Assembly (NCBI RefSeq): GCF_051622035.1
Contig: NC_135365.1
Coordinates: 8,908,001 to 8,972,000, forward strand
Direction: 5' to 3'
DNA: 64,000 nt
Source: Arctopsyche grandis
Taxonomy: Eukaryota > Arthropoda > Insecta > Trichoptera > Hydropsychidae
Position numbers and translations under genes: made by a program. The notes beneath the pieces are model-generated. The model had not been told where the DNA came from and did not search any database. It was given only the letters and a program-made list of their open reading frames with translations. Below, piece by piece: positions 14,963 to 53,790 of the stretch; within the stretch, counting starts at the first letter, position 1, and each line of letters opens with the position of its first letter.

Positions 14963-15512
14963 ACACAAAAACAACATGCTTGTACACAATATACAAACTC
15001 GTGCTCAAGTAGACGAAAATTTTAGCAAATGAGTCTCGAGAAATTACAAGTCGGTAGAACGGAGCGCACCACAGTTCGACATACCATTTTTCATTTTAAA
15101 ATTGTCATTTATTTAGGACCATTTTTAAAAAGATTTAATGTCAATCAACTGTAAATCTTCAACATTGATTCAGAACAAATGGGGTTTATCGATCGATGGT
15201 AAAAATTTCGTCAAGACGGTCTGGTTCTAGCATGTTCCTTGGTTGTTTGCGTTGTTCGTACATCATTCGTTTGACCCCTCCCTTTCTTCCGATAGTTTTT
15301 CTAAATGAAAACATTATTTTCAGCAATAAAAACCCAAAAACAATTACAACTACAAATTTAGACGCTCTAATATAATGGCTGTATGTAATAGTAGCAGGTT
15401 ATAGACCCCTGGCTGACCGTTCGTTTTGCGCACGTACACTAAGCGGCCATTTCGGCGCGTACCGTCGTGTCGTACGTAAGTCCGGTTTGCGTTGATTTTG
15501 ACAGCGAAAAAA

Positions 15513-15981
15513 ATGTCAGAAAACTCGGAAAGACGCAAAATGCGTAGCGGCCTCAAGAGACAGAAGATTTCCATGGCCATGAAGATGGCCATCATCAGAA
15601 AAGTTGAAAGCGGAGAGCGAGAAGCACACGTGGGCAGAGCGTTCGGTTTGAGTCGCTCCACTATAAACTCAGTGCACAAGGACAAGCAGAGAATCCTGCA
15701 GTACGCCAGGACTGGCATGTCCATGAGAATTAGCAAAAGGCGAGGTCCCGTCATGGGAGTCATGGAAACGCTGCTGATGGACTGGATCAGAGAACAGCAT
15801 AAGCTCAATATGCCCGTGAATCATACGACGGTCCATCAGCAAGCCAAGGTTCTGTTCGATCAGGTCAAGGCAGAGCACGAAGGAAGCCAGGAAACATTTT
15901 GCGCAAGCTACGGCTGGAGACGCAGGTTCAGGGGACGTTTTAATCTGCACCATCAAACCTATACGGAAATGGATCCTGGTC
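15513..15981 (+). CDS. Alternative first exon A: CENP-B/pogo-type double HTH
   Basis: 156 complete codons plus one base. The start is the ATG at 15513, in an A-rich context; the same frame is open a little upstream but without an ATG. Residues about 10-62 form the psq/CENP-B N-terminal HTH (KISMAMKMAIIRKVESGE, then GLSRSTINSV). Residues about 85-145 form the CENP-B-type second HTH (LLMDWIREQHK, then ASYGWRRRFRGRFNL). Such modules bind DNA in pogo/Tigger transposases and in domesticated jerky-like proteins. The donor GTAAGT at 15982 falls just after this module, where full transposases continue into the DDE domain; none follows, and the frame stops at 16010. Base composition is richer in GC than the surroundings. 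Probably nuclear when joined to the BESS exon. Confidence 0.75.
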
Positions 15982-16010
15982 GTAAGTATATTTTTGATCA
16001 GAGTAAATAA

Positions 16011-17308
16011 ATAGGACTCGAAAAATTATTTCGACTTGCCCATAATAGGGCAGAATTCGCACGGGCCAAAAACGATGCTTGATTCGGCATTAGAAGTAGA
16101 ATAAATAAATAGGATTTTATCAGACATTTTAAATCCGAGTAAAATAAATTGTTGTTGAATTTTATAGTTTTTCTATACCAATCCATTACGACATCATACT
16201 TTCTGATTTTTTGGGCTTTTGAAATTAGGAGCTCATAAAATTTGGAAACTTTCGAGCTTTTCATACCGGGAGCTTTCGAGCTTTTGAAATTGAGAGCTTT
16301 AAAAACAGGCCATACGTTATTTATACCGGAAATTCCAGCATTATCGCCTTGAACTTGATGTGCAAATACCGCATTACTTTTATTACAAAATATCGCAGAC
16401 AATAATAAAATACAGTAGGGCTTATGTGCGCACGTACGCATTTCCGAAATACATTAAGCACCGCTTATGTATTAATTTGGTGAACGGTAGAAAATTTTGA
16501 AGACGATTGAAAATCATACCTAGTTGAATATCAGTCTAAATGGGTCATTCGTTGTGAAAGTTTTTGAAAGGTTGCGTATTTTCTATCATAATACTATGTT
16601 CTAATGATGCCTATTTTCCACAACATTAAACCAAATTACCAAACGAAACCAATTATTGGAGCCATTCTCAGGATGAGAGCGGCCTTCGTATATTTTTATC
16701 GCCTAATTGTCTTCTTGCTGCTGCATCTTCTCATTTGCATTCTTCATTGTATGTTCGATGGATGAAACTACTCCACCGACCGCCTAAAATAGATATTAAA
16801 TTATTATTATTATTATTATTTATTATTATTATTTATTATTATTATTTATTATTATTATTTATTATTATTATTTATTATTATTACTTATTATTATCATTTA
16901 TTATTTTTTTTTTCCGAAACTTATAACAATATAATCATAAAATAAACATACTTATCATAAGAAACGCAACATAAGCCAATGTCGGCACTATTATTTACTT
17001 TTACAGCCCAGTTCAGAAAGGACATAAAAGTTTTCAAATTGCATCGAATGTGATAATGCACCCAACAAAGTAATCACAATGCGATAAATGCCTGCAAATG
17101 ATGCAACTTTACAATGCATTGGCATTTGAACAATGCCATCATAATGCACGCGACTACGTACTACTCGCCTGATGATCGGTCGAGCGTACTAGAACGTGTA
17201 AATGCAGATGAACGCTCTCGACCAAATTCAATATCTACTTCAGGCGTTTGTACGTATACGCGTCTCTTTCACACCTATTGCGCGTATGGCCAGAGTGACA
17301 GAGACAGA
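16011..17308. other. Intron/spacer, includes TTA-repeat tract
   Basis: No DDE transposase sequence or further exon is seen after head A. A (TTA)n/(TTTATTA)n simple repeat lies at 16799-16905. A minus-strand open stretch at 15998-16441 has no recognisable domain. Confidence 0.55.
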
Positions 17309-17400
17309 TACAGTACATTATAACGGACCCCACTTTAACGGATATCGCTTTTAACGGACATAATTCCACGGACTATCGTGGAGAGTGGTACTTTTCCGTA
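17309..17400 (+). repeat. Pogo/Tigger-like 5' terminal repeat fossil
   Basis: After a TA dinucleotide (17309-17310) the sequence begins CAGTACATTATAACGG and shows four AACGGA/CACGGA units between 17321 and 17375. CAGT starts with repeated TTAACGGA-type motifs are characteristic of pogo/Tigger termini. It sits 136 bp upstream of head B, itself a pogo-type DNA-binding domain, in the order expected for the left half of such a transposon. No matching right terminus was found downstream. Confidence 0.5.
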
Positions 17401-17405
17401 CAGTG

Positions 17406-17411
17406 TCAGTT
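17406..17411 (+). promoter_or_regulatory. Candidate initiator for exon B
   Basis: TCAGTT matches the arthropod initiator consensus TCAKTY. It lies 36 nt before the exon B ATG. It is only a short motif and could be chance. Confidence 0.25.
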
Positions 17412-17446
17412 ATAATATATAGGTATAGTCTTGCTTTAGAACAAAG

Positions 17447-17870
17447 ATGGCTAGCCTTAAGAAAAGAACCCGAGTGCACTTGAATGTGAGGCAAAAATTG
17501 GAATTGATCGAAAGAGTGGAGTCTGGGATTCCGATTTCGCGTGTCTGTGAGGAGTACGGTATCAAAAAGCAGACTGTTTCTGACATTCGTAAGTTGAAAG
17601 AAGAGTTGAAGAAATTTGTTTCAACGTGCGATCTGAATTCCCCAAATAAGCCCAGGAAGAATATAAAGATGTCAAAGGAACCTTCTGTAGAGGAGGCCGT
17701 GTATAAGTGGTATAAACAGGAACGTTCTCGCGGTGTTGATATACAAACAGCCGATTTGAAATCGGCAGCGGAAAGATTGGCAAATCAGATGAAGATAGAT
17801 TTCCAGCCGAACGATTGCTGGATTTGGCGATTTCGTAAACGTCATGGAATTGTAATGAAGAAAAAATCCG
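17447..17870 (+). CDS. Alternative first exon B: CENP-B/pogo-type double HTH
   Basis: 141 codons plus one base, from an ATG with A-rich context (ACAAAGATGG). Residues about 8-55 form the N-terminal HTH (NVRQKLELIERVESG, then EEYGIKKQTVSDIRK). A basic linker follows, then a CENP-B second HTH at about 70-135 (EEAVYKWYKQERSRG, then CWIWRFRKRHGI). The donor GTGAGT at 17871 follows KKKSG, the point where pogo-family proteins normally continue with GEA before the catalytic domain; here the unspliced frame stops at once. It differs strongly in sequence from head A, so the two are not a recent tandem duplication. A Tigger-like terminal repeat lies just upstream. Predicted to bind DNA and, with the BESS tail, act as a nuclear regulator. 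Confidence 0.75.
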
Positions 17871-17989
17871 GTGAGTGATTTTGTTTGCTCCACTTGATTA
17901 ATATCGCATACAAAATTATATAACCTAAAGAGATCTATTATTATATAAAAGGACGAGTGATCGTACGTTCAATATTTTGTAGTTTTTTA

Positions 17990-18540
17990 TTTATGAAAAC
18001 ATATATGAACCGAATAGCTGGAAGAACAGGCGATTAATATATGAAAGAAGTGCTCGAATGGTACCCGAGACAGGGCTCGAAATGGACGGGAGCGCATGGG
18101 AACGCCACTCCCTTTCGTAAAATCTAGAAACGTGGCGTTCCCTATTGGGAAACATGATATACATACGTATGAAAACTTTTGAAGATACTCTTCTTCGAAC
18201 AATGGCCCATGTAGGTCATATTCTACAACAGGATTTCTCAAACATTTGAAAAAACTTTCGCCTGCGGTGCATCATTATTTGTAATATAAAATATTAAATA
18301 AGAATAATATTTTATTTCTGCTTAAGAAAATAAAAAAATAATCACTTGGAAACGCAAAATGTCTAATACAACCTCTGATATATGTATATGCATATAATGC
18401 ATTATAATAGGTACAATAAAAAAAAATCAAAATCATGAAATTATCGAGCGCTCCCTTTCGTGAAAATTTTCATTTCGAGCCCTGACTAGAGATACTATAA
18501 AATGGTACAAGGAAGGCCCCAGGGGAGATAGGCGGATAAA
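17990..18540 (+). pseudogene. RTE-type LINE relic split by a hAT element
   Basis: The block GAAAGAAGTGCTCGAATGG at about 18040 and the block TGGTACAAGGAAGG at about 18500 are adjacent in intact copies (compare 56635-56690). Here they are separated by the 414-bp element at 18071-18484. The remainder is decayed coding sequence of the LINE C-terminus. Confidence 0.55.
18071..18484. mobile_element. Non-autonomous hAT element
   Basis: 14-bp perfect terminal inverted repeats CAGGGCTCGAAATG. Flanking 8-mers ACCCGAGA (18063-18070) and ACTAGAGA (18485-18492) match at six of eight positions, an aged target duplication. Removing the element rejoins the RTE relic. No coding capacity. Confidence 0.7.
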
Positions 18541-18542
18541 AT

Positions 18543-19037
18543 CCAGGGCTGTGGAGTCGGAGAATTTCAAGCGGTGTCGGAGTCGTAAAAAATTAAACCG
18601 ACCCCGACTTCTTTTTTATTTTTTTTTAATTAATAGTATTGCGGTATGTGTCAACCAGAGGTCTCCAATTTTATTGAAGTAAATCCACGAATGAATTAAT
18701 ATTTAATAATTTCTTTATAGAAATCACTTACCTTTGTATAATCTTTTCTGAACTATCTATATCTACTTCCTAATTGGATTGTCTATATACAAATGAACCA
18801 AAGTATTTTAATTTCAATAGCCTTTGAAGTAAGAACATAAATCCTTTTGGTCGAAAAGCTTTGTCGACATATGTATGTACATATGTACCTGCAAATACCT
18901 TAACCTGCTTTTATTCATTTCATCAAGTTTAAATTCTTTGTTATGCATTAAGACCCACCCTGCCCCCATTTTAATATTCTCTAGAAAATTTTTTTAAATG
19001 TCATTTTGATTCAAATTTTTAAATGTGGCAACCCTAT
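18543..19037. mobile_element. Solo hAT-like ends
   Basis: CAGGGCTGTGGAGTCGG at 18543 resembles a common hAT terminus with alternating GACTCCGAC/GGTGTCGG content. At 19022-19037 an inverse TAGGGTTGCCAC-type terminus occurs, similar to the element at 61826. They do not match each other, so two different truncated elements are likely. Confidence 0.35.
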
Positions 19038-19074
19038 TAAATGCGATAACAACCGGCCCGCGGGCCACACTGGT

Positions 19075-19080
19075 TCAGTT
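19075..19080 (+). promoter_or_regulatory. Candidate initiator for exon C
   Basis: TCAGTT, an initiator-consensus match, lies about 120 nt before the exon C ATG in a short GC-richer segment. Weak evidence by itself. Confidence 0.2.
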
Positions 19081-19197
19081 CGAGAACGCTCGTTGAAACG
19101 AGCGGGTGTACATTTGTTTTTGTTCTCGTAACCGATGTGAAATATTTTGTGAAGTCAAACCAAACAAACCACAACTGTCATCAAATTGAAATCCCCA

Positions 19198-19462
19198 ATG
19201 GCAACAACGTTGAATAAAAGAAAAATCGACCGTGAGAGAAGGACATTTAAGGAAAGATGGACAGTGGATTACTTTTTTATCAACAAATATGGGAATCCAT
19301 TCTGTCTCATATGTCGAGAATCCTTATCCGTTTTAAAAGAATATAACGTTAGACGTCACTACGAAACTAAACACAAAGAGAAATTTGACAGCTTTAACGG
19401 CAGTTTAAGACTAAGTAAAATATGCGAGCTCATAACATCGCTTACAATACAAAATATAGAAA
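19198..19462 (+). CDS. Alternative first exon C: SPINDOC/hAT-type zinc finger
   Basis: 88 codons plus one base from the ATG at 19198. The protein has a basic start (NKRKIDRERR), then FKERWTVDYFFINKYGNPFC and a C2H2-type finger with FCLIC as the cysteine pair and RRHYETKH as the histidine pair (residues about 40-65). A trailing helix (LRLSKICELITSL) follows. This layout is that of the SPINDOC-like finger at the N-terminus of GTF2IRD2/SCAND3-type hAT-derived proteins, where it acts in DNA or protein recognition. The donor GTATGT at 19463 ends the exon, and the unspliced frame stops at 19488. No hAT catalytic core follows. It joins the BESS exon in frame. It is the shortest of the four heads. 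Confidence 0.75.
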
Positions 19463-19574
19463 GTATGTATTTTTTTTATTTTATTTAATTTTTAAAATAT
19501 CGACACTTATATGTACATATGTATATAAATATGATAAGCTTATATGTACATACATATGTATATAAATATGAAAT

Positions 19575-19820
19575 TATATTCAGACAGTAGTGACAAATAG
19601 TGAGGGTAGGTAGTCAATTCGCGAGGAACCATTTCAACAATAAAATCAGACAAATTGGTAAACTCAGATAAGAAATAATCAACTTGGAGTCACATATGTA
19701 TATCCAAATATAACCAAAAATACTTCAAATCATACAATGTATGATTCTTTTCAATTGAGGTCTGACAACGGTTCAAACTCGGGACCTTAAGGTTGCTAGA
19801 AACATACGCTAATCACTGAT
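19575..19820 (-). repeat. tRNA-derived SINE copy, degraded
   Basis: Minus-strand copy of the SINE seen at 25.4-25.9 kb. A degraded B box (complement of GGTTCAAACTCGGGACC) and an A-box region near ACGCTAATCACTGAT are visible, with a shared body (ATTTCAACAATAAAATCAGA; GGAGTCACA). Confidence 0.5.
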
Positions 19821-20174
19821 ATATACTATTAATTATTTATTTTTAATAATTTATTGTTTATTTAAAAGTTCTTTTAAAAAATAAAATTACGATCTCTTGA
19901 TAGTCCATGAATGAGTTTATGAACTTATCCTGATACTGCTTAAATTGCTATTAATGAAACAAACTTGTTTAGTATTGAGAAATTAAAATAGCGGTCACGG
20001 AAAGGTGTTCACCCCCTCAAATTCGGACAATAGCAGGTAGAATTTTTTTTCGAACGCTCTCCCTTTGAACAAAAGGATATTTAAAAAAAAGTATAGGGTC
20101 TCCTCCAACTATTTCGACAGTTATCCACTGGTTTCCGAAGTGTAAACATCTTTCAAAGCGATTTTGCATTCAAC

Positions 20175-20508
20175 ATGCCAAAAATACCACAGTTGACCCC
20201 GTTGAAAAAAACCCAAATATTGACCCTAGCTTCGCGAAATTCGAGCAGTCGTTCAATCGCGCGCGAAGTGGGATGCAGCCCAACAGCTGTGAGGAACTGC
20301 ATTAAAAAATATCAGAATTCCGAATGTTTAGAACGGAAACAAGGCTCGGGATCAAAAAGAAAGACGACTTCCGCAGAAGATCGTCTTTTAAAACGGATTT
20401 GTTTACAAAACCGATTCAAAAGTGCCGTCGATGTTCGAACGGAGTATATTGCAGGCGGTGGAAGTGAAATCAGCGTCGAAACTATACGTCGTCGACTTCG
20501 AGAGTGCG
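20175..20508 (+). CDS. Alternative first exon D: Tc1/paired-type double HTH
   Basis: 111 codons plus one base from the ATG at 20175. Residues about 8-48 form the first HTH (TPLKKTQILTLASRN, then IAREVGCSPTAVRNCIKKY). A hinge with KQGSGSKRKTT stands where Tc1-family proteins have a GRPR-like hook. Residues about 65-111 form the second HTH, ending SVETIRRRLREC. This is the bipartite DNA-binding domain of Tc1/Tc3 transposases, related to the paired domain. The best phase-1 donor is GTTTGT at 20509, a weaker site than those of heads A-C. The frame then runs into unrelated residues and stops at 20609, with no DDE domain. The domain boundary fits the other heads, but this join is the least certain. 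Confidence 0.68.
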
Positions 20509-20724
20509 GTTTGTTTCCTACATACATACATATATCCTACATATTAAAGTATTTGTTGATTTTCAAAACCATTTTTAATTTTATATCACACATTTTTCGT
20601 AAATTTTGAAGAATTTATTGCTTTAAATTAAAAATATTGTACTGCATAAATCCTGTCACTTTCAATGCTGAGCTAGAATCTGTTGTTTTCGTGCTATGCT
20701 GATATTTTATAAAATAGCTCCGTC

Positions 20725-20973
20725 CATTGATGTATAATACACTAGATCCGCCCTCACGCTTTATACTGGTCTCCCTTTTGGCGCATGCAAAATACATAGC
20801 GCATGCACAGTTTCTCTCAGTAGGTAGGTAGGTACCACTGCGTCGTAGGGAAAAAACCTTTTTTTTTCCAACTTCCCCGCTAGTTAAACCCCCCGCACCC
20901 CTCAGTTAGTGAAGACAAGATCTCCGACCAAAATCACACGTCAGGGCCCATCTATGTGTATTATATATCTATG
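20725..20973. mobile_element. MITE family B, second copy
   Basis: Inverted relative to the copy at 13461-13684, with the same ends (CATTGATGTATAATACAC at left, degraded at right) and the same GC-rich interior. Flanking 8-mers GCTCCGTC (20717-20724) and GCTATGTC (20974-20981) match at six positions, supporting 8-bp duplications. It lies in the intron between head D and the BESS exon. Confidence 0.7.
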
Positions 20974-20981
20974 GCTATGTC

Positions 20982-21825
20982 TCACAAATGTTTTGACAGT
21001 GTGGGGGTCTAGACAGTTCTTGGAAAGCGCGTCTACCTGCACCTTGCATAAAGCACGCTATACATTACCTATATTTATTCCAAGGGCAGTCCAGGTTGTA
21101 GATGTGTAGCGGAAAGTCAAGTAGATATGTAAGTCAATTCGTAAAGTGATAAATCCAAGGACGGTCCAGGTCGTAGTTATATACATACGTAGCAGTTGGT
21201 TCAATAGTTAGGAGTCGCGAATTGATAAAAAAAACAGACCGGATAAATGTGAAAACGGATGAATGTCTCAAACGAAAGTTGAGCTAAGACTGAATGTACT
21301 TTTCCTATGGTATTACATGATATTTTCCAGGAATCGACTCACCATTATCGAGTAAGCAGGTAAATCGAAAAAAAATTGGCATTTTTACATATAAAGTGCT
21401 ATATAGCATCATATTTAGATCACCCATTAGACGTTTTAGTATATTCACTTACATTTACAATTAGCATCAATTTGGTGAGTAATATTTACTAAACTTTTTG
21501 TATAAAAAAAAATAATCACCAAAACATCTATATTTTTTGAATAATGTAAAAAAAAATATAACATTATATAAAATTGAGTGTATAGAGACTTTAAGGCGAA
21601 AAAATGGAATGCTTCCCGCGTTACTACAGCAAGTGATTTTTGATCACGACAGGCAAGTAATTTTGATCAAGCAAGTGATTTTGTGATCACGACAGGCGAG
21701 TCGTTAGCACCCAACGGGTTAATTGTTTTATTAAATTTTCACAGATTTAAATTCAAATGTTAATGATTATAAAATAGACGCTGAATGTATACCTGAACAA
21801 TAATATTATGGGATAGCGAAGATTA
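20982..21825. other. Intronic, no feature recognised
   Basis: Contains short local repeats (two related CAAGTGATTTT/GATCACGACAGGC blocks near 21630-21705), but no exon-like frame with splice signals was seen. Confidence 0.5.
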
Positions 21826-22205
21826 ATATACTTTAGTTTAGTTATGTAATGTGCTATTTAATCATATTATAGCTTTCATTCCTTTCCATTTCATTTGTTT
21901 ATTTTGTATTTACCTTTTTCATTTGTTTTTTATATTTGTAAATTTCAATTTCTTCTTATATTCTATCTTATAACCTTTTCCAAATATTTTAATACTATAG
22001 TTTAATTATGCAATGTACTACATATTTTGTCATGCCTTTATTCTTTACTTTTTAATTTGTTTTCCTTATATTTATCTTTTTCATTTTTGTAAAAATCTAT
22101 TATTGGACTCGGGTGTTACATATATTATTTATTTACTTTTTGTGTTTTTTATACCTATCTCTGTACATCCTGTCTGTTGATTTTTCAATTAATAAAATAA
22201 AATAA
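21826..22205 (+). mobile_element. 3' UTR fragment of LINE family 2
   Basis: Near-identical over about 380 bp to 53240-53630, the 3' UTR and tail of the LINE at 51.8-53.6 kb (a TTTAGTTTAGTTATGTAATG start, an ACTCGGGTGTTACATAT block and a tail of AATAAAATAAAA). A classic 5'-truncated insertion, recent judging by the high identity, within the intron of the BESS locus. Confidence 0.85.
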
Positions 22206-22280
22206 AAAAAATAAAATTAAACAATTCTAGTAAATATTTACAAAACTTATGTTTAAGAGACGGATACTCGTTATGAGTCT

Positions 22281-22331
22281 ATTGTTATTTACGTAAGAGT
22301 CATAACTTATGACTCTTACGTAAATAACAAT
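22281..22331. repeat. Perfect 25-bp hairpin
   Basis: Arms 22281-22305 and 22307-22331 are perfect inverse complements around a single C at 22306. Each arm contains TTATTTACGTAAGAGTC or its complement. It lies in the intron just left of another inverted-repeat element. It may be a young palindromic duplication or a MITE end. Confidence 0.8.
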
Positions 22332-22335
22332 ATAC

Positions 22336-22512
22336 GTTCCAACAGTGTTGAATGTAAGAAAGCAAGGAAAAGGTTTTTCTACAAAGTTAATAAGAGTCAA
22401 ATGAATAGACTTGGGCTAGGGATCGGGGCAGAGAGCTTTTCTATTGTTAATTTTTTTTTGAAAACTCATTTTTTACAGGCTTTTTTGCTCTCTTGCTTTG
22501 AACACTGTTGGA
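22336..22512. mobile_element. TIR element, unclassified
   Basis: Left end GTTCCAACAGTGTTGAA and right end TTGAACACTGTTGGAAC are inverse. Further inside, GAAAGCAAGG faces CTCTTGCTTT. About 177 bp, with no frame. A clear target duplication was not found. Confidence 0.55.
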
Positions 22513-23110
22513 ACAGTCTGTTTGTATTGCCCCGACGGCTATTCGATGTTTATTAATGACCATCCGCTGTCTACTTATGATTAATTTGATATATCCAAAA
22601 CTTGAAACATTTATCTAGCTAATGCAGGATTCACAGCATCCGATTTTCTCACGCCAACCGAATCGGTCCAGCAAGTTGCACGGTGGGATTCCCGCATAAC
22701 ATCCAACCGATAGGCAATCTTGGCGAGCATTTCACCATGGCACAATTTATTAGATAATTTCATAAAGCTATCCGAGCACAAGGTTTAGAGCCAGCTCGGC
22801 GACAAATGCCGTTAACAGTTACTTTTCAGCCATGTTGTATTATCGGTCGTTTCATTGCAACGTTAATAATTTTCCGCATCACGAAATCGTAGCTTTGGCG
22901 AACTTTTATGACTTCAATTATGGTTTTATTTCCTTAGTTTTTAAGACGTGCCGGCAACACACAAATATACATGCATAAAAGCGTTTTTATTAACGACCTA
23001 TATAAAACTTGGTCAGCGGCGAACTACAATTTAACAGTCTAAAGAGAAACTTTTCCTAATAAAATTCACAATTTATTATACTCACGCATTTCGTTTTGTA
23101 ATTGTTTCAG
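22513..23110 (+). other. Intron end with branch site and acceptor
   Basis: Unique-looking sequence leads into TATACTCAC (a plausible branch point, about 23078-23086), a T-rich run and TTGTTTCAG at 23102-23110. It forms the 3' splice site of the BESS exon. Confidence 0.6.
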
Positions 23111-23517
23111 AGGCCGAATTGCCGCGACCGGCTGAAAACAATCATGAAGAAGAAGTTGCCGAAGAAACGGTCGATAAAATAAAGGAGGAAATCATGGACG
23201 AAGAAGACGAGGCGAATGAATACTCGCAAGACATCGACATCGACGAAAAGCCGTATCCGCAATTTATGCGTGAAATCGAACATGTTGATATCGCTCATTT
23301 ACCTAGCACAAGTTCAAATACAAGTACAGATTTCCCGAATAAACAAAACAGTCTGATTGAAGTCGTTTTAAAGCCGAAAACTATAGAATTGGACGATGAT
23401 TATTATTTTTTGATGAGCCTCCTACCTCATTTTCAAACAATGGCCATCAAGAAAAAGATGATGTTTAGAATGAAAATAAAAGAATTAATGTTTGGTGTCA
23501 TGTTTGACGAACAATAA
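23111..23517 (+). CDS. Shared 3' exon: acidic linker and BESS domain
   Basis: The exon opens with AG completing a split codon, then GCC GAA TTG, giving 134 residues to a TAA stop at 23515. Residues 1-50 are very acidic (EEEVAEETVDKIKEE, DEEDEANEY). A Ser/Thr-rich stretch follows (LPSTSSNTSTD). Residues about 94-134 match the BESS motif: DDDYYFLMSLLPHF then helices KKKMMFRMKIKELMF. BESS domains mediate protein-protein interaction, typically self-association, in Adf-1/Dip3/Stwl-type MADF-BESS regulators. Here no MADF exon is seen; instead four other DNA-binding exons lie upstream. There is no ATG near the exon start and the acceptor is strong, so it must be spliced to an upstream exon. Confidence 0.85.
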
Positions 23518-23651
23518 CAACGTTGTGAAATCAGTTAAAGTTTTTTGTTAAAATTTAGATTAAAATTGATCAATTTTTTATAGTTTTCTATTAAAAATTT
23601 ATCGTCGGCTGTGTATTTAGGTTAAGTATAGCTATATTATTGAATTATAAA

Positions 23652-23657
23652 AATAAA
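23652..23657 (+). terminator. Polyadenylation signal of BESS exon
   Basis: AATAAA lies 135 nt after the stop codon in AT-rich 3' UTR sequence. It is the first canonical signal after the stop. Confidence 0.55.
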
Positions 23658-23930
23658 TTTAATTTTCATACGAATTACACGTTTTTTATTATAATGTGCA
23701 TATTTATGTATTTTATTATAATGTGTATATTGTGAGAATATGCTAATAAGAGAAAAAGTCTATAGAAATATGTATGTTTTTAATACACTAAAAATCAAAA
23801 CACACATATACATCATATGTGTGTGTGTGTCCTAACTCTCGCCGATAACTACGTCCTAACACTTTATATATATGATGTACAGATCAAGAAATACCAATAA
23901 TAAATACATAATAACAATACATTTTTACAT
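23658..23930. other. Non-coding, TG-rich simple repeats
   Basis: Short CA/TG repeats near 23800-23830. Nothing else is seen. Confidence 0.5.
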
Positions 23931-23934
23931 TAAT

Positions 23935-24300
23935 CACGACACATGTATATGTTCAAACATTGTACAGAAGCAGTGTAAACATTATACAAGGCAAATACGA
24001 TCAACATTCACAGAGACATCTATGGAGAAATTTGGAGTATTTAAACAAACCAGTGAAAAATCAAGATACTGGACAACTCGAAATTTACAAGAGAAATAGG
24101 ACAGGGATGCAAATGTTCAGGAACCGTTTCAATGAAAATCAGATAATTTGGCAAACTCTGATAGGTAACGATTGACCGGGAGTCATAAACAAAGGTCTGG
24201 CCAGCAGCAACCAGTGAGAATCGAACTCATGACCACTTTGTTTGAAAGGATTATATGTTCACCACTAATCGACGCTGCTGCTGCTGCGATAAAAATACAC
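23935..24300 (-). repeat. tRNA-derived SINE copy
   Basis: On the minus strand there is a tRNA-like head (complement of CCAGTGAGAATCGAACTCATGAC as B box, near 24207-24229) and a conserved body (GATAATTTGGCAAACTCTGATAG; GGAGTCATAAAC; GGTCTGGCCAGCAGC). Related to the copies at 25.4-26.3 kb and 56.3-56.5 kb. Confidence 0.65.
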
Positions 24301-25395
24301 GACCAACATTTTGCTTCAAAAAATTATTTGAATTGAAAATGCTATTTTTTGCCAAGTTCCAATTTATTTTGATACTTGAATATATTAAAACAGTACATGA
24401 AGAATTGCGGTTGTGCGTCGATACAATGTTGTGGCATAGAAGTAGTCACGTAACATGAGGATCGAAATAAAGTGACACAGGAAACCACTCCCCATCGCTA
24501 TAGATTAAATTTATTTCTGACCAATAATAATACGATACTATTTCTTGCATCAATCAGAAAAATCGATATCATATATGTACATATGTATATAATATATACA
24601 CAACAAGAATTCCAAGAAAATAAAATAAAACCACATAGATAAGAATCGACTTTGATAGAAACTTCACATCGAAGTCACGGAAGAATCGATTTACTCAGTA
24701 GCGGAGCATGAGCAAATTTGCTTTTGGCATGTGTGCAAAACTTTATTTGATATTTCGTCGAGGAGAATTCAGTACATGGCTCTCTTCAGTTACGGCTTGC
24801 GACTTTAGAAGTCGCAGCTGCCGATTAATCAAAAGCTTATCTTCCCCAGCGACCGTGGAAAAGGACGACGAAATCATTAATAAAAGCGTCTCATCCGAGC
24901 AGAGTAACGTTGCGAGTATGAAGCGTGACATTTTATAACTTCGTAAATATGTATAGTATTATATTTTAATTTAATTTTCGAACGTTTTACATAAATCGTC
25001 TCATCCAGTATATACATACAAATTTAATACATACATATGTACATAAATAAAGGTCGGCGAGTTTCAAAAATCAAACTCGCTTGCAAGAAACTCCACAGCT
25101 GGAAAATGTGGTGTCAGGCATAAACTAACTTTATTAATAAATAGTCTGAACAATATTGCGCAGAAAATATGTATGTATGTAAATATATCATCAAAAAGCT
25201 AAGGGTTTATTTGGTATCAAAATATTTTTATATCAGATGCTTCCAAGTGATTGCTAATTATTTTTTTATTTTATTTTTACGTACATATATACCAGGAAGG
25301 CCTAACAGGCAGTGCGCCTTTCTGGCCAATTAAAAACATCGATATACAATTTTTAATATAATTTTAACAAAGCATCATAGAGACATACATCTATG
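24301..25395. other. Non-coding, one doubtful small frame
   Basis: A 76-codon ATG frame at 24708-24938 sits in a less AT-rich patch. It shows no family (SKFAFGMCAKLYLIFRRGEF start) and the opposite strand is also open there. It is not called as a gene. Confidence 0.4.
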
Positions 25396-25406
25396 GATAA
25401 ACTATG

Positions 25407-25875
25407 ACAAATTTTTGACAAACTTACATTTTCTTAGCATTTTTATATAAATCGTCACATTCCGAGATGCTGAAAATTTGCGAGACATTTAGGGACAAAT
25501 TTGCAGTATTTTTATACAATCAGCGAAAATGTGAGAAATGGGAAAAGTCTGATAGGAAACGACCGACCAGGAGTCACAAACCAAGGTCTGGCCAACAGGA
25601 ACAAATTTTTGACAAACTTACATTTTCTTAGCATATTTTTATAAATCGTCACATTCCGAGATGCTGAAAATTTGCGAGACATTTAGGGACAAATTTGCAG
25701 TATTTTTATACAATCAGCGAAATTGTGAGAAATGGGAAAAGTCTGATAGGAAACGACCGACCAGGAGTCACAAACCAAGGTTTGGCCAGCAGGAACCGGT
25801 GGGACTCGAACCCGTGACCACTATGTACGAAAGCATATATGCTAACCACTAGTCCACGCTGCTGGTTTATATATG
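25407..25875 (-). repeat. SINE with tandem-duplicated body
   Basis: A 194-bp unit at 25407-25600 is repeated immediately at 25601-25794 with few changes. Only the second is followed by the tRNA-like head. On the minus strand the head has TGGTTAGCATATATGC (A box) and GGGTTCGAGTCCC (B box), ending at a GCAGCGTGGACTAG start. This is a dimeric-body pol III SINE. Confidence 0.75.
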
Positions 25876-25989
25876 CAGATAGGTATACACTCATTTTTAT
25901 TTTATTAGCACGACATCTATGGTCAACATTGTATATTTGTAAGTATTATTCAAGGTCAATTACAAACATCTATCATCAAACATTACAAT

Positions 25990-26265
25990 CATCATAATGG
26001 CATCTATGGACAACCTTTTTGGAGTATTTTTAAATATCAACGAATTATGAGATGCTGTTAACTCGAATTTTACGAGAAATAGAACAGGATTTCCAATTTT
26101 ATGGAATCGTTTCCAATGAAATCAGATAAACTGGCAAACTCTGATAGAAAACGATTGACATTGGAGTCAAATATTCAAGATCTGGCCAGCAACAAAGGAA
26201 TAAAACCCGTGACCACACAATCGAAAGCATCACATGCTAACCACTGATCTACAAAGCAGTAGTAA
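25990..26265 (-). repeat. tRNA-derived SINE copy
   Basis: Same family: body with CAGATAAACTGGCAAACTCTG and GATCTGGCCAGCA, and a minus-strand A box near ACATGCTAACCACTGATC. The B box is eroded. Confidence 0.6.
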
Positions 26266-26360
26266 TTGACAATAATGAAGCATTTTTGTGGGTAAAACCA
26301 ACTTGGCCGCCGGTTTTGAATCTCTAAATACTAATCTGCAATTCCTATTGGTTAGAATAT

Positions 26361-26713
26361 TGTTGCGTAGGGGTGGGTTCAGGATCTAAATCAAAGGCCC
26401 AAGTCGCTTCACAGCATTTATTCAACGATTCGAGAGATCCACACGGATCCACCGTTCACTCCAGAATAATCTGATCTACCGTGTGTACCTCCTTATAAAG
26501 GACAAGTTGCACACCACAGCTTCCCTGATCCATTTATATATCTATTGTCTAGGCACGTAAAAGTCTACCGTGCTGTCTATAATTCTGTGAGAACTCCAGC
26601 GTATTCTTTGTTCGGGCACTTACTGAGTCCCGTTAGCCTAAGCCAGGGTCTCTATTGTTCACCCACGAATGCACTTAGACAGTGCGTAGTCTCTCTCATG
26701 TTCCCACGTTACA
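26361..26713. mobile_element. Solo LTR, probably Gypsy-type
   Basis: A 353-bp unit begins TGTTGCGTAGGGG and ends CACGTTACA, flanked by ATAT on both sides (26357-26360 and 26714-26717). TG..CA ends with a 4-bp duplication are typical of LTR retrotransposons. A TATAAAGG promoter-like box lies near 26494. No internal region is present, which suggests LTR-LTR recombination. Confidence 0.65.
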
Positions 26714-26717
26714 ATAT

Positions 26718-28055
26718 CTTAGCTGACTAATAAGAATCGCTTATTTTTTTCCTACTGCAAACAGCCGTACAGAATAATGTCTTCTTAGATTCTAATTAGA
26801 ATTTAATTTTTTCTCCTCTTCAAATTAGATACAATTAATGTATTACTTTATATTTCAAGTTTTGTGCACGTAGCACTCGTAACAAAATAAAACGAAATGG
26901 TTTGAAGCCTCTGCTATTGTATACGTGTATTTCCTTAGACGGAAAAGTTTCACAATGCGAGCTACCGGTTTGAGTTGCAGTTGCATCTGCAATATCGCTT
27001 GAAAGCCCCCCGGGAAAACTTTTACAATTGCAACTTCTTAAATAAATTGAAGCTCGAGGGAATTTGACATTCTTGCATATGAAAATATGCCCTGGGGGGC
27101 TAAAGTGTTAATATTCTTTTGATCGATCAGCACAAATAGACGACACCATTACGGGTAGAATTTCAAGGAGGGCGACTTATAAGTTTGCACACATTCTAAA
27201 CCAACATTCAAATATTAAAACAAAAAATTGTCTACTTTGAACACAATCATAATAAACATTTGAAGATAAAAAACATATTATATAAAGGGATGAATGTGTT
27301 GGAAAAAATTCTAAATGAAAAATAGCATTTTTAATGTTTAAACTTTAGTAAATGATTGCATATATTTATTTTACTCTTGTTAAATATAACAAAATCAAGG
27401 ATAAAACACTTGACTATAAATTCGGATTTTTATTTCGACTGTAAGCTAGCTAGATTTCTTGAAATAGACGGAACACCCGAAAAAAAGGGCAAGATGCATT
27501 TGTAAGCTCGCTTACGGTGAAAGATCGTCATCGGAGAAGTTCAACAGAGCCAAAGTCGACTTTCCGCAGCGTCCAAAGTAAGACGAATAGCCCTTAAATC
27601 GAAAAGCCCTCTGAAATATTATTCGAGAGGGCCGTTCTGAGGGCCCGCTGATTTATATCGGCCCTCGCTATTATTCACTTTTGCGCTCGGGACACTTCCG
27701 CGCGCGTGCAATGTGGGAAAATTCGCCGAACACAACAATTCGGTACACATTTGTCATTCTGATGAATTATGCATTTACATTGTACACGTTTTTGTATTGT
27801 GCTGTGCCGTACTTGGCTTGATACTCGTTAGGAGATAAAACCGTATTTACGCCAATTGCATTTCCGGTTCGGTACATTTCCGCAACCGTGTTATTCGATT
27901 CGTTAGAACGATGTCGACAAAATATCTCCACGCGACATTCTAGCCCACAATCCAAATGTACGGGGGATTGTTTGGAAAGTAATGCAACCCATGGTGGTGG
28001 TACTTTGAGAAAATTTCACGTCGTCGATTCCGGAAAGCATAGTGAATTTGAACAT
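26718..28055. other. Non-coding with GC-richer island
   Basis: No gene. About 27480-27760 is clearly richer in GC (GGGCCCGCTG, CGCGCGTGC). It may be regulatory. Small frames here show no family. Confidence 0.45.
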
Positions 28056-28059
28056 TTCT

Positions 28060-28320
28060 CTTTACAATAGTGATGTACAATTTAAATGTAATCATGATTT
28101 ACAACCTTCCATAAGCTCTGTTCTGGCTAACATCAAATCTCATTTATTTTTCAAACATCATTCATTCATCTCGCTTTGGTTTTCTTTGCACTCTTCTAGG
28201 TATTATTCGAGCCTTCTTTCATCCATTCTTCTAAGAATTTGATCTGCCAATTACTTCTTACCTTCTAGTATGTCAGCTTGTTTTGTCATACTTCACACCC
28301 ATGTGAACCGTTTCCTATCT
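28060..28320 (-). pseudogene. Highly degraded RTE-type LINE relic
   Basis: On the minus strand the order of blocks resembles the RTE-type 3' coding end (complement of TTTGCACTCTTCTAGGTATTATTCGAGCC and CATCCATTCTTC). It is the most eroded copy in the window. Confidence 0.4.
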
Positions 28321-28674
28321 CTTCTCGGTATACTAGTGTTTCACCCGTTGACATATACACAGTTTCGGAAAGGAATTGATATGAATTTTGGAGTAAAAGT
28401 AAAAAAATTTATACAACGAATTGTAACATTTCCATAAATTATGTAGTCGACGTTATTTTAAAAAACATCAGTATAATTTTATTATGAAAATAGGAAAAAA
28501 ACAGATTGATCAAATCATCATTGTGGTATAAAGATGTGATCATTTCTTTCATAACATACCATTGAAACCTATTTTTTGAATGAAAAAGTTTCGTTTTCCA
28601 TTCAATTTCGTTTTTGCAAATTTTTATACCGCGATTTTGCGTATTTCATATCATAGCTGTTAACTTCATAAATT

Positions 28675-28860
28675 CAAATATAGTTTTTTTGAACTCTTTT
28701 TCCTATTATGCTGTACATTAGAATAACATAATAACTAAATTAAATTAAAATTGTAAATTATAAAATAATCAGTAGATCGGTAGCTATTAAAATATATATA
28801 AGATGTATTGTGAACATAATTTAGTAATGATAAAAAGCATCTAAAAATCAAAATCATAAA
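28675..28860 (+). repeat. Distal part of hAT-relic family
   Basis: Close match to 6140-6345: a TTTTTCCTATTATGCTG start, then ATCAGTAGATCGGTAGC and AGATGTATTGTGAACATAA. Confidence 0.65.
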
Positions 28861-30429
28861 TGCACATTGAAGCCTGTAAATTGATATCATTGCTTATTTG
28901 CGAACGATATTAACGAATGAAACTTTGATAATGAAACAGTTATCTCTCGGCCACTCTTATTATTTTTTTGTATAGTCCTTTCTTAGAAATATTATATAAA
29001 ATAAATTGCTTTTATAAAAATAACTAAAAACATAACAAATTTATTATCCTTTGTGCTATGATTACAATGCAACCAAAGCAACGCCTGGCAATACTTTTAT
29101 ACATAACTATATAATGAAAGAGTCGTGTGTTGGCCACTACAAATACTTTTCTGTCTATTATACCATATAATAATATTATATATCAATATTGTTACGTTAC
29201 TTAAATAAATAAATAAAAAATAAATATTTTCTATCGTTGACTTAAGTACAGTAGGTATAAATCCAACATTGTTCCCAGTTTAATTATTATTTTTTATATT
29301 TTCCACTATTTCATAATGTATTAGAGACTATGCTGTGCCAATCTAAAAATTGTACAATTCACAAAAATCGTTTGAAGATTCCGAAACGATACACCGTCTC
29401 ATTTTGAAATTGTTTTACAACAACCGGCAACATTTTATAAATTGAATCTTTTACCAAGAAAACTTCGATTGTTAGCCACTTTTACAATTTATTTTTCGTA
29501 ATGTCCACTTGCAGAATGCATAATTGAGATTCAATTTGTACCGGAACATTTGAAAGAAGAAAAAAAAAGCGTTTGAAGTCACCGAACCGACACTAGAAAA
29601 TTATCGTCCATTTTGAAATTGTTTTAGTACGGCGAGGTTTTCACAACTGAAAACGTATTTAAAAGCTTTCAAAAATCTAGGAATTTATTCAGCCATTATC
29701 GAGAGCGAAACAATAGACACCGATCGACGTCTTTCTAAATTTTTTTCCCCGAAGCTAATGGTCAAAATACATACAATGGGGTTTCGAAATAGGCGGGCCG
29801 TAGTAATTTAGGTTTTGGGACGAGCCGTGCCGCGTTTATGGACGCCATAGAAAATTGTATGGGGGTATTTTTCCACCGGGGGTTTCAGCAAAGATGGGTC
29901 CCTTCTTTTGTGAATGAAATAAATCACCTAATTTATAAGCACTTTTATCTTCGCTAGGGGCTTTTTTCCTTTTTTTTTTTGGTCCGCGAAGACCGTGACT
30001 GGGCGTACAAGAAGACTCGTCGAAAATATATCCATTTACGCTTCAACGAAACGGTCATACATTTTTATTGTATTATTTATAACACGGTACCGAAAAGCGT
30101 ATTTTGTTCGACCTATTTATATCCACTCGGAAAGAAATGACATTTAACGTGAGTAGCGTGAAGTCGTTATTCGACAAAATAAATTCCAAAGTGGTCATAA
30201 TAAAATTACATTTCGAAGTTTAATGTAATCCTGTCCTGATTCCGGCTCAAAGTAATTTCGTCGCGTGAAAATTTATATAATTTTAATTAATCTTAAGCAG
30301 AAAATAAATGTAATCATATTATGTATGCTAAAACTTACTTAAAGGATTTTACCAAAAAAACCCAAGTTGATATTTTATAAAGATTTATTTATATCACCTT
30401 TTTTTTTTAGATTTGCATATTTTTACTAA
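28861..30429. other. Non-coding; partial internal duplication
   Basis: Two related blocks (about 29365-29420 and 29570-29635) share CGTTTGAAG and CATTTTGAAATTGTTTTA. The patch at 29750-30010 is less AT-rich with no frame. No gene seen. Confidence 0.45.
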
Positions 30430-32415: not shown

Positions 32416-33370
32416 GATACAAATTTTCAGGAGGGGCTACTTAAAGCGTAGAAAAGTTTAATAAAAAAATAATTAATGCTTTCAAGACGACCCTCAAAAG
32501 TTTCCAAACAAGCCAAACACTGAAGTCCTTCCCAAAGAGCGTCTCAGAATAATAAAAACCTACTTTGAAAGTGTGCGAAATTCAACGAACCCATTTGCAC
32601 GTCGCCTGCTGCTTGCTCTCTTTACAAGCGCATACTTGTACAAAGTTGTGTGTGATTTTTTTTTCAATATTGGGAACCGAATTAACCCATTGGCGTCTCT
32701 CAACCCATTCTGCCACTTATCGGCGCACTTTTACAATGGGCCCATTGTTCGCGCTAATGAAACATGCCACGAGAGCGAAACGCACGAAATGCATCCGAGC
32801 TCGGGATGCAGCTGGTGCACTTTTGCACACGAGTACGTGTACTATGTGTATGATAATGTGTGCACGTATAGTATGCAGTTGCACTCTCCCGGTCCCGATG
32901 CATGCATACACGCCCGCATAATATATTATATTATATCTCGGAGAACCTGGCCAGGTGTCGTCAAAGGTATGCGCGTCGACAATAACAACAGATGTGCAAG
33001 TGTTGCACTTTTCTTGATTGGCGATGGTGTGTGTGTGTGCGAGTTCATTTGAAACGTTCGTACGTGCTTTTTATCGTGTGAAAAACTTGTAAGGTTTCGA
33101 CACTTTTGACCAGGTCGAAATCACGTTGAAACTTTTTGCATGGATGTTTCATCAATCAAGCGTGTTTAAGATTTTTTCCTGGACAGGATTGATTGCATTA
33201 GTTGATTAGTTAGAAATTTATATGTATGGGGCCTTGCACATAGCCTGTACTATAAGCTAAATGTTTTTTTAGCAAGACCAATTTTTTGTTGTACTTTTAA
33301 GTTATTTTTTCCGTAACCAGCGTGTAAATTCATGTCGGTATATACATATGTTAGAGATGGTGTGTATCTA
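32416..33370. other. Non-coding, GC-richer patch
   Basis: Two overlapping open stretches (about 118 and 159 codons) span 32565-33052 in different frames but show no protein family. The longer lacks an ATG at its start. Compositional bias is the likelier cause. Confidence 0.45.
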
Positions 33371-51803: not shown

Positions 51804-53195
51804 CTTGCGCGCACCCTTACATTACTTACCAATCATACCAACCTTACGATACGTACCACTCATAACAATCCTACATTAGGTGATAAGAATCTTATTGAGA
51901 ATTACCGTCCTATATCTAAACTATCTGTCATTAGTAAAATCTTTGAAAAAATTATCTATAATTTCCTTTTCTCCAATTTCAAAAACTACATTATACCTGA
52001 ACAACATGGTTTTTTTAAGGGGAGATCGGTAGAGACTAACCTGCTTAATTTCACTAGTACTCTCACATCTTATATGGACAAACGAATCCAAATAGACGTC
52101 GTTTATACGGATTTCTCTAAAGCTTTTGATAAAATCAATCACAACCTTTTACTCAATAAACTTTGGTCCCTCGGAATCCGAGGAAATTTATTTCGTTGGA
52201 TCTCTTCGTATATACTAAATCGTCACCAAATCATAATTCTCAATGGTTTTAGATCATCACTTAGACATATTCCTTCCGGTGTCCCACAAGGGTCGCATTT
52301 AGGTCCCTTATTCTTTTTACTCTATATTAATGATATCTCATACATCTTCAAACATTCCTTTATACTTCTTTACGCTGATGATTTAAAAATTTACAAACCT
52401 ATATACACCATAGACGATTGTCATAAGATACAAGAAGATCTAGATAGATTCTCTATATATTGTTTAAATAATGATCTTTTTATTAATCTAGAAAAATGCT
52501 CTATTTTAAATTTCACTAGAAATAAGTCAATTATTACTAATCAATATCAATTAAATCATTCAATCCTTAACACGTCATCTTCTATTAAGGATCTTGGTGT
52601 AATACTCAATGATAAACTAGATTTCTCTGAACATATTTCTTTTATTACCAACAAAGCATTTAAATCTCTTGGATTCCTACTCCGCTCAACAAAACCCTTT
52701 AATGATCCTTACGTACTAAAATTACTTTATTTTTCCTTTGTAAGGTCTCACCTTGAATTTGCCTCAATTATCTGGTCACCTTTTTATTTATCCCATATTA
52801 ATTGTATTGAGAAAGTTCAACTTAAATTTATTAAATCCTTACGCTACCTTTTTCCTACCTATACCCATTCTACTGTTTCCGACATTTTAAAAATCCTTTC
52901 TTTTAACAATCTTTCTGTCAGGCGACGACATTCTGATGCTATATTCTTCTTTAAGCTCATAAATGGTTTCCTTGATTGTTCTGATTTACTGAATAAGGTT
53001 AATTTCAGAATCCCAGTTCGATACCCTAGACGCGTTGCACTCTTTTCACTTGATCCTTTCAATACTAATTCCCAAAAATATTTTTATCTGCAGCGCGTTT
53101 ATCGTATGTTTAACGGAGAGCTGAATGAGGTTGATCTGTTTGGTATTTCCCTACATCAATTCAGGTCTAACATCAAGAGAATCTTGACCGATTGA
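51804..53195 (+). pseudogene. Reverse transcriptase, C-terminal two thirds
   Basis: 464 in-frame triplets to the stop, homologous from about 51864. Motifs in order: ENYRPIS (51897), PEQHGFFKGRS (near 51987), the first catalytic block YTDFSKAFD (52104), PSGVPQGSHLGPL (52275), the active-site LLYADDL (52365), then FVRSHLEFASIIWSP (52737) and VRRRHSDAIFF in the C-terminal region. RT thus keeps its catalytic aspartates and could look intact, but the apurinic endonuclease and the N-terminus are missing and there is no proper start codon. The first ATG (52074) is inside the RT domain. It acts, in intact relatives, in target-primed reverse transcription. Confidence 0.85.
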
Positions 53196-53630
53196 TTCAT
53201 TTTTTCTTCTATTCTATTTTTCCAATATTTCCATTATTTTTATACTTTAGTTTAGTTATGTAATGTGCTATTTAATCATATTATAGCTTTCATTCCTTTC
53301 CATTTCATTTGTTTATTTTGTATTTACCTTTTTCATTTGTTTTTTATATTTGTAAATTTCAATTTCTTCTTATATTCTATCTTATAACCTTTTCCAATTA
53401 TTTTAATACTATAGTTTAATTATGCAATGTACTACATATTTTGTCATGCCTTTATTCTTTACTTTTTAATTTGTTTTCCTTATATTTATCTTTTTCATTT
53501 TTGTAAAAATCTATTATTGGACTCGGGTGTTACATATATTATTTATTTACTTTTTGTGTTTTTTATACCTATCTCTGTACATCCTGTCTGTTGATTTTTC
53601 AATTAATAAAATAAAATAAAATAAAATAAA
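51804..53630 (+). mobile_element. Jockey-clade-like LINE, 5'-truncated
   Basis: Contains an RT open frame, a 3' UTR of about 430 bp and an AAAAT-rich tail. The same 3' UTR occurs at 21826-22205. The element lacks its 5' half (endonuclease, ORF1). The open frame and close match between copies indicate fairly recent activity. Confidence 0.8.
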
Positions 53631-53790
53631 ATATATATAAAAATCAATGTTTGTCTGTCCGTCACGTCACGTATGCGTTCCTATACTTTACGAGAACGAG
53701 AACGGGAACGGGAACGGGAACGGGAACGGGAACGGGAACGGGAATCGCATGCGTTATTGTGGCATTGCAACGCATGCCGGGTTCAGCTAG
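53627..53790 (+). mobile_element. Short Helitron-like element with hexamer repeat
   Basis: ATATATATAAAAATCAATG with TTTGTCTGTCCGTC start, about eight GGGAAC-type hexamers (53690-53748), then a hairpin GCATGCGTT..AACGCATGC and terminal CAGCTAG followed by T, as in Helitron 3' ends. No coding. Confidence 0.6.

Follow-up and report, generated by a model that had tools for sequence, protein, structure and literature searches.

The Drosophila insulator proteins BEAF-32A and BEAF-32B carry alternative N-terminal DNA-binding fingers on one BESS-bearing C-terminus (PMC5021357; PMC13025758). Through alternative promoters, BEAF joins a BED finger of 81 or 80 residues to a shared C-terminus of 202 residues that contains BESS (PMC13025758), and BESS–BESS association of BEAF was shown by two-hybrid and co-precipitation (PMC5021357). 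Here, we describe LOC143918990 of the hydropsychid caddisfly Arctopsyche grandis (Trichoptera), in which several DNA-binding exons exapted from transposases precede one BESS tail exon in compatible splice phase, as a sequence-only reading of this DNA had recognized. The locus lies in a stretch of 64,000 nucleotides (C11:8908001-8972000, + strand), which we call the window and whose positions are counted from its first letter. On balance, we think it probable that LOC143918990 encodes BESS-domain regulators and that it has three or more alternative 5′ coding exons exapted from transposases, among them the heads H1, H2, and H3. The earlier reading had counted four interchangeable heads and had not recognized the architecture among described BESS genes; its fourth head, H4, is most likely Tc1 debris, and BEAF-32A/B already has alternative N-terminal fingers on a common BESS tail.

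The likeness to BEAF would be that of one gene with alternative N-terminal DNA-binding heads and a common BESS C-terminus, read here from sequence only; nearest in layout is H3 with the tail (223 amino acids: one finger, an acidic middle, and BESS). BEAF has two heads of one kind (BED), whereas the three at the present locus fall into two unrelated kinds, H1 and H2 being CENP-B-like, and Pfam lists no zf-BED in H1, H2, or H3. Alternative heads on a BESS tail are thus a known plan, since BEAF-32A/B swaps two BED fingers on one such tail, and unrelated heads of two transposase kinds would set the present locus apart. CENP-B-type heads on a BESS tail were not found described in the literature searched, with most subscription papers outside its scope. 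MADF-BESS regulators such as Stonewall and CP60, a kind that by eye is common in the A. grandis genome, likewise bear a C-terminal BESS motif on a DNA-binding protein; they differ in that no MADF is listed here on the + strand of window positions 1-30000. The BTB genes lola and mod(mdg4) combine a common interaction domain with many interchangeable DNA-binding ends, the common part being N-terminal and the variable fingers C-terminal, a mirror image of the present layout. KRABINER, SETMAR, and CSB-PGBD3 are single captures, whereas at the present locus a single host exon would serve three of them. Such host–transposase fusion genes resemble our locus in that a transposase DNA-binding domain is joined to a host domain, with exonization as the proposed route (PMC12062965).

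Results

An annotated protein joins H3 to the BESS tail

The NCBI protein of LOC143918990 (P0001, 223 amino acids) equals H3 plus tail letter for letter across junction 19462/23111, the splice that the sequence-only reading had predicted for this head. A transposase-derived DNA-binding domain thus stands together with a host domain, without a catalytic domain, in P0001. The tail is BESS by Pfam (PF02944, E 1.2e-8, over cut-off), and its first 70 residues contain 23 D/E versus 5 K/R, in agreement with the acidic linker proposed earlier. Leucines at tail residues 86, 93, and 100, the last of them inside BESS, are in heptad spacing, from which a zipper is doubtful. Within 15982-45000, nine acceptor-like sites are followed by an open phase-1 frame of 45 codons or more, and the frame at 23111 is the longest. 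Of the remaining eight, four fall inside the region scanned with Pfam and show no domain, and four lie beyond 30000, outside the scan.

That scan covered the three + frames of 1-30000, with stops read as X and E up to 0.01. It lists neither a catalytic (DDE) domain nor MADF, and the heads accordingly stand without a catalytic domain, as had been claimed. A hidden MADF or DDE exon on the − strand was also considered; the scan there took in two of the three frames across 15001-30000, and none is listed.

H1, H2, H3, H4, and then the tail follow one another along the + strand (Table 1). Splice phase is 1 at all four head donors and at the tail acceptor, and all four virtual head–tail splices (H1–H4) stay open to the tail stop codon, because each head has a length of 1 mod 3 and the tail matches in phase. 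The coordinates, ATGs, and GT donors given earlier for four heads on one strand hold; H4, with its truncated Tc1 sequence and weak donor, is not comparable to the other three. The domain types assigned to H1, H2, and H3 were borne out by matches that pass the Pfam cut-off; in H4 the Tc1-type HTH_Tnp_Tc3_2 match falls below it.

Table 1. Features of the locus in window coordinates. Each head starts at its ATG and ends at its last exon base; the tail starts at the acceptor. A slash marks the exon end.
Feature	Positions	Strand	Content	Length	Donor
Head exon H1	15513..15981	+	CENP-B_N + HTH_Tnp_Tc5	156 codons + 1 nt	GTC/GTAAGTAT
Head exon H2	17447..17870	+	CENP-B_N + HTH_Tnp_Tc5	141 codons + 1 nt	CCG/GTGAGTGA
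Head exon H3	19198..19462	+	SPIN-DOC zinc finger, hAT-related	88 codons + 1 nt	AAA/GTATGTAT
Proposed head H4	20175..20508	+	N-terminal Tc1-type transposase part		GCG/GTTTGTTT (GCG/GTTTGT)
Shared tail exon	23111..23517	+	Acidic linker + BESS (about 23392-23478), then stop		
Introns/spacers with repeat debris	15982..23110	+	Between heads and tail		

Phase-1 GTRWGT donors in the last 45 nt of a frame are found in 4 of the 15 + frames of at least 100 amino acids in the window versus 0 of 16 − frames, and the four are H1, H2, H3, and a further frame. Lowering the limit to 80 amino acids gives 4/33 (+) versus 0/36 (−), and lowering it to 60 gives 6/109 versus 3/110. The further frame (32477-33049, + strand) has 191 codons, no Pfam domain, and its phase-1 GTRWGT donor near the end.

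H1 and H2 are single-copy CENP-B-type heads

Both heads carry CENP-B_N and HTH_Tnp_Tc5 over cut-off (E 1.5e-11 and 2.4e-8 in H1; 1.1e-14 and 2.8e-6 in H2). Residues 13-142 of H1 align to residues 2-129 of the 131-residue CENP-B chain 1hlv (E 1.1e-7), which we take to be the DNA-bound CENP-B domain, and H2 aligns to nearly the whole of this chain (E 4.8e-8). Genome copies of H1, H2, and H3 were sought in 475.7 Mb, with 107 of 254 candidates scored; all genome lists are lower bounds. Among the matches listed, H1 and H2 are single-copy, with next best places that are 32–35% (H1) and 35% (H2) identical.

A relative of H1, P0002, is 69% identical over 153 amino acids without gaps, and the similarity ends about five residues beyond the H1 donor, the first three of these being the donor read as codons. 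The relative of H2, P0005, is 78% identical over 139 amino acids, also gap-free, and ends with GE, the same read-through of the H2 donor as in the window. P0002 and P0005 each lie on a contig of 2,094 bases (source code lgn, presumably Logan) and probably represent one contig of another species that bears both heads. By these alignments, H1 and H2 are probably conserved up to the same donors in another species.

The H2 donor GGTGAG sits on Gly-Glu, which is kept and read through as coding in 6 of 7 more distant relatives, the remaining one (P0009) having Asp-Glu at this position; the donor therefore probably arose inside captured transposase codons. P0010, a protein with a DDE_1 domain, is 48% identical to H2, whereas H1 matches P0010 at 34% over 61 amino acids. 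Because H1 and H2 are 20% identical to each other and H2 is far nearer to P0010 than H1 is, the sequences suggest separate captures.

Elsewhere in the genome, two open CENP-B-type frames lie on one strand 19 kb apart (C3:3285568-3285966, L056, and C3:3304328-3304753, L057). The first ends at an ACA/GTAAGTAC donor (GTAAGT) in phase 0, and CENP-B-type heads such as this one may open a different gene that has a tail of its own.

H3 is a single-copy SPIN-DOC finger

H3 contains the Spin-doc finger PF18658 (E 1.1e-10, over cut-off). It is single-copy among the matches listed, the next best genome place by score being 54% identical. The other 37 H3-type places listed reach up to 54% by best score, with one 37-residue match at 63%, and 17 of the 37 contain stops. 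A relative, P0014, is 50% identical over 80 amino acids and carries Spin-doc together with a weak DUF4371 match below cut-off; by its sequence, H3 is hAT-related.

H4 is probably a truncated Tc1 copy

H4 differs from the other heads in domain content, since only the generic HTH_29, HTH_28, and CENP-B_N pass the cut-off beside the weaker Tc1-type match. H4 is 95.6% identical over 114 amino acids to the transposase-like P0003, and the match reaches 20516, 8 bases beyond the proposed donor, where a CATA-rich simple repeat follows. P0003 extends 151 residues beyond the end of this match, and HTH_Tnp_Tc3_2 ends at 44 of 72 model positions in the H4 open frame versus 72 of 72 in P0003. The source of P0003 labels it a transposase; we do not call it intact, because a Pfam search with E up to 0.01 lists no DDE domain for it. 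No clear pair of terminal inverted repeats surrounds H4 in 19900-23110, and a copy truncated on one side would have none. Since the transposase match passes the weak donor and stops inside the second helix–turn–helix (HTH), H4 is probably a 3′-truncated Tc1 transposon copy in the last intron and not an exon. Because it is the only close copy found in the genome (next best 68%, with 150 scored out of 1021 candidates), H4 looks like a recent insertion of low copy number; the lack of another close copy is the one point that favors exaptation. Four equal heads were considered and rejected because of the weak donor, the transposase match past it, and the truncated second HTH in H4.

Among the matches listed, Tc5-type heads precede only this BESS exon

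How often would such heads be met upstream of a BESS exon by chance? The genome has 74 BESS matches, 61 of them over cut-off, and for Tc5-type heads (PF03221) the comparison takes in the 147 places that passed the cut-off among 150 scored, out of 228 candidates; expected counts assume even placement along the genome. Of these 147, two (H1 and H2) precede a BESS exon in the same orientation within 10, 15, and 30 kb alike, versus 0.094, 0.141, and 0.283 expected by chance. Among the matches listed, this is the only one of the 61 BESS exons that is preceded by same-strand Tc5-type heads at a distance of up to 30 kb; a second BESS locus with alternative heads was not found, no Tc5-type head being listed at that distance and orientation for the 60 others. 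Of the 38 H3-type places listed, one, H3 itself, precedes a BESS exon by less than 10 kb (0.024 expected), and two do so within 30 kb (0.073 expected). The second of these, a SPIN-DOC match at C1:16694076, is 26.9 kb upstream of the BESS exon C1:16721022, with both on one strand.

An MADF-like half stands in the same frame, by eye, at 13 of the 29 other BESS loci that were read out (60 exist). When 10 kb upstream of three BESS exons without in-frame MADF were scanned, one showed nothing and two showed MADF pieces, of which one passes the cut-off and the other falls short of it. At C9:3105091-3300411, a span of less than 200 kb holds four BESS exons that are almost identical (frames of 68–73 codons); a BESS gene seems to have expanded there recently, and by eye this tandem cluster resembles an MADF-bearing frame (L026). 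Five stretches of C9 entered the repeat comparison as background only.

Discussion

In the model that we propose, each head would be a complete DNA-binding domain taken from a different transposase: two Tigger/CENP-B-like lineages would have supplied H1 and H2, and a hAT-like SPIN-DOC finger H3. All three would have been cut from their catalytic domains and end in a phase-1 donor, one of which per transcript would be joined to the single phase-1 tail acceptor; for H1 and H2, we infer this splice from phase and position. The predicted products of 291 (H1), 276 (H2), and 223 (H3) amino acids would differ in DNA target and have the acidic linker and BESS in common. By analogy with BEAF-32A/B, the common BESS tail should support homo- and hetero-oligomers of the isoforms that bridge sites of different sequence. 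H4 would lie outside this set of heads.

What would determine which head is used? Each head may have its own promoter, or a head may be chosen by splicing from an upstream 5′ untranslated region (UTR) exon. A TCAGT initiator-like site precedes the ATG of H2 by 41 nt and that of H3 by 123 nt, and none lies within 400 nt upstream of the H4 ATG. Acceptor-like sites are present before the ATGs of H1, H2, and H4. Those of H1 (15502-15504) and H2 (17437-17439) are YAG sites just 5′ of the ATG, and H1 and H2 could for this reason be internal exons behind a 5′ UTR exon. Serial use of the heads in one transcript was considered and rejected: an H1-to-H2 splice at 17440 is out of frame (by hand), and alternative use is therefore favored over serial use.

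Several observations weigh against a gene with three heads. The protein collection returned no A. grandis protein with H1 (lengths 147–467 amino acids) or with H2 (126–400), which speaks against such isoforms or at least suggests that the current annotation omits them, and the NCBI name of P0001 carries no isoform label. A search with the tail among proteins of about 160–509 amino acids, a range that a lone tail frame would escape, returned P0001 as the single protein and no tail relative from other species. The tail acceptor is ordinary (70% pyrimidine across 20 nt), and no TCAGT lies within 400 nt upstream of the H1 ATG. The ground for placing P0002 and P0005 on a common contig is the equal 2,094-base size alone, and the corresponding H1–H2 stretch in A. 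grandis, about 2.34 kb, is longer than that. H1 and H2 could stem from one old duplication and not from separate captures. Finally, the genome comparison uses an incompletely scored set of Tc5 candidates (150 of 228) and the assumption of even placement.

In a rival account, H3 is the sole head of the BESS gene, whereas H1 and H2 open one or two other genes, domesticated and CENP-B-like, whose own 3′ exons are short or lack domains. We regard this as rather unlikely, though as the likeliest of the rivals. It fits the fact that the sole NCBI protein found at the locus is H3 plus tail, and that H1 and H2 seem to be paired on a short contig elsewhere in which a link to the tail is not visible; the phase-0 GTAAGT at the end of the C3:3285568 frame also indicates that CENP-B-type heads can serve other genes. 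However, the BESS exon is the longest of the candidate phase-1 acceptor frames, its four rivals within the scanned part have no domain, its phase is common to all heads, and chance falls far short of accounting for three heads of this sort ahead of a single BESS exon. That the heads are all transposon debris which happens to lie in front of a BESS gene seems highly improbable to us. Debris is likely for H4, Tc1-like places are abundant (1021 first-look candidates), and the intervening DNA contains repeats, but H1, H2, and H3 are open and single-copy with no close genome copy among the matches listed, H1 and H2 are kept gap-free in another source, and H3 is part of an annotated protein, which already contradicts this account for that head.

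We also hold it to be very unlikely that all four heads work as alternatives. In favor are the open frame of H4 across 111 codons, a GT that fits in phase, and its standing as the only close genome copy among the candidates scored. Against this stand its weak donor, the Tc1-type match that continues through that donor, the second HTH that is cut short in comparison with P0003, and the high identity to a transposase on another contig, which suggests youth. A broader idea, which we consider speculative and unlikely, is that a hydropsychid BESS gene captured DNA-binding domains from transposases time after time, each as a first exon that can replace the others, and that hetero-oligomers of its products bridge the ends of several transposon superfamilies. 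The locus would then keep adding heads, with H4 as a candidate fresh insertion that is still un-exonized, and the products would be regulators or insulator proteins that recognize the ends of several transposon superfamilies at once.

Should H1, H2, and H3 all join the tail, one gene would have drawn DNA-binding domains from two or more kinds of transposase and placed them as exchangeable parts on a single interaction surface. Such a gene would be an independent parallel to BEAF, suggesting that the plan of alternative heads on a BESS tail arises repeatedly. It would also offer a natural series of transposase-domain exonization, from settled (H1, H2) through annotated (H3) to what is possibly raw material (H4).

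Finally, the last intron contains further repeats. Its segment 21827-22217 is 99.5% identical to 53241-53632 elsewhere in the window, and the latter directly follows a 463-codon reverse-transcriptase frame (RVT_1) at 51804-53192; by this identity, 21827-22217 is suggested to be a recent truncated retroelement copy. Nearby, 22277-22335 forms a near-perfect inverted repeat with 29-base arms that are 97% complementary and separated by a 1-base gap.

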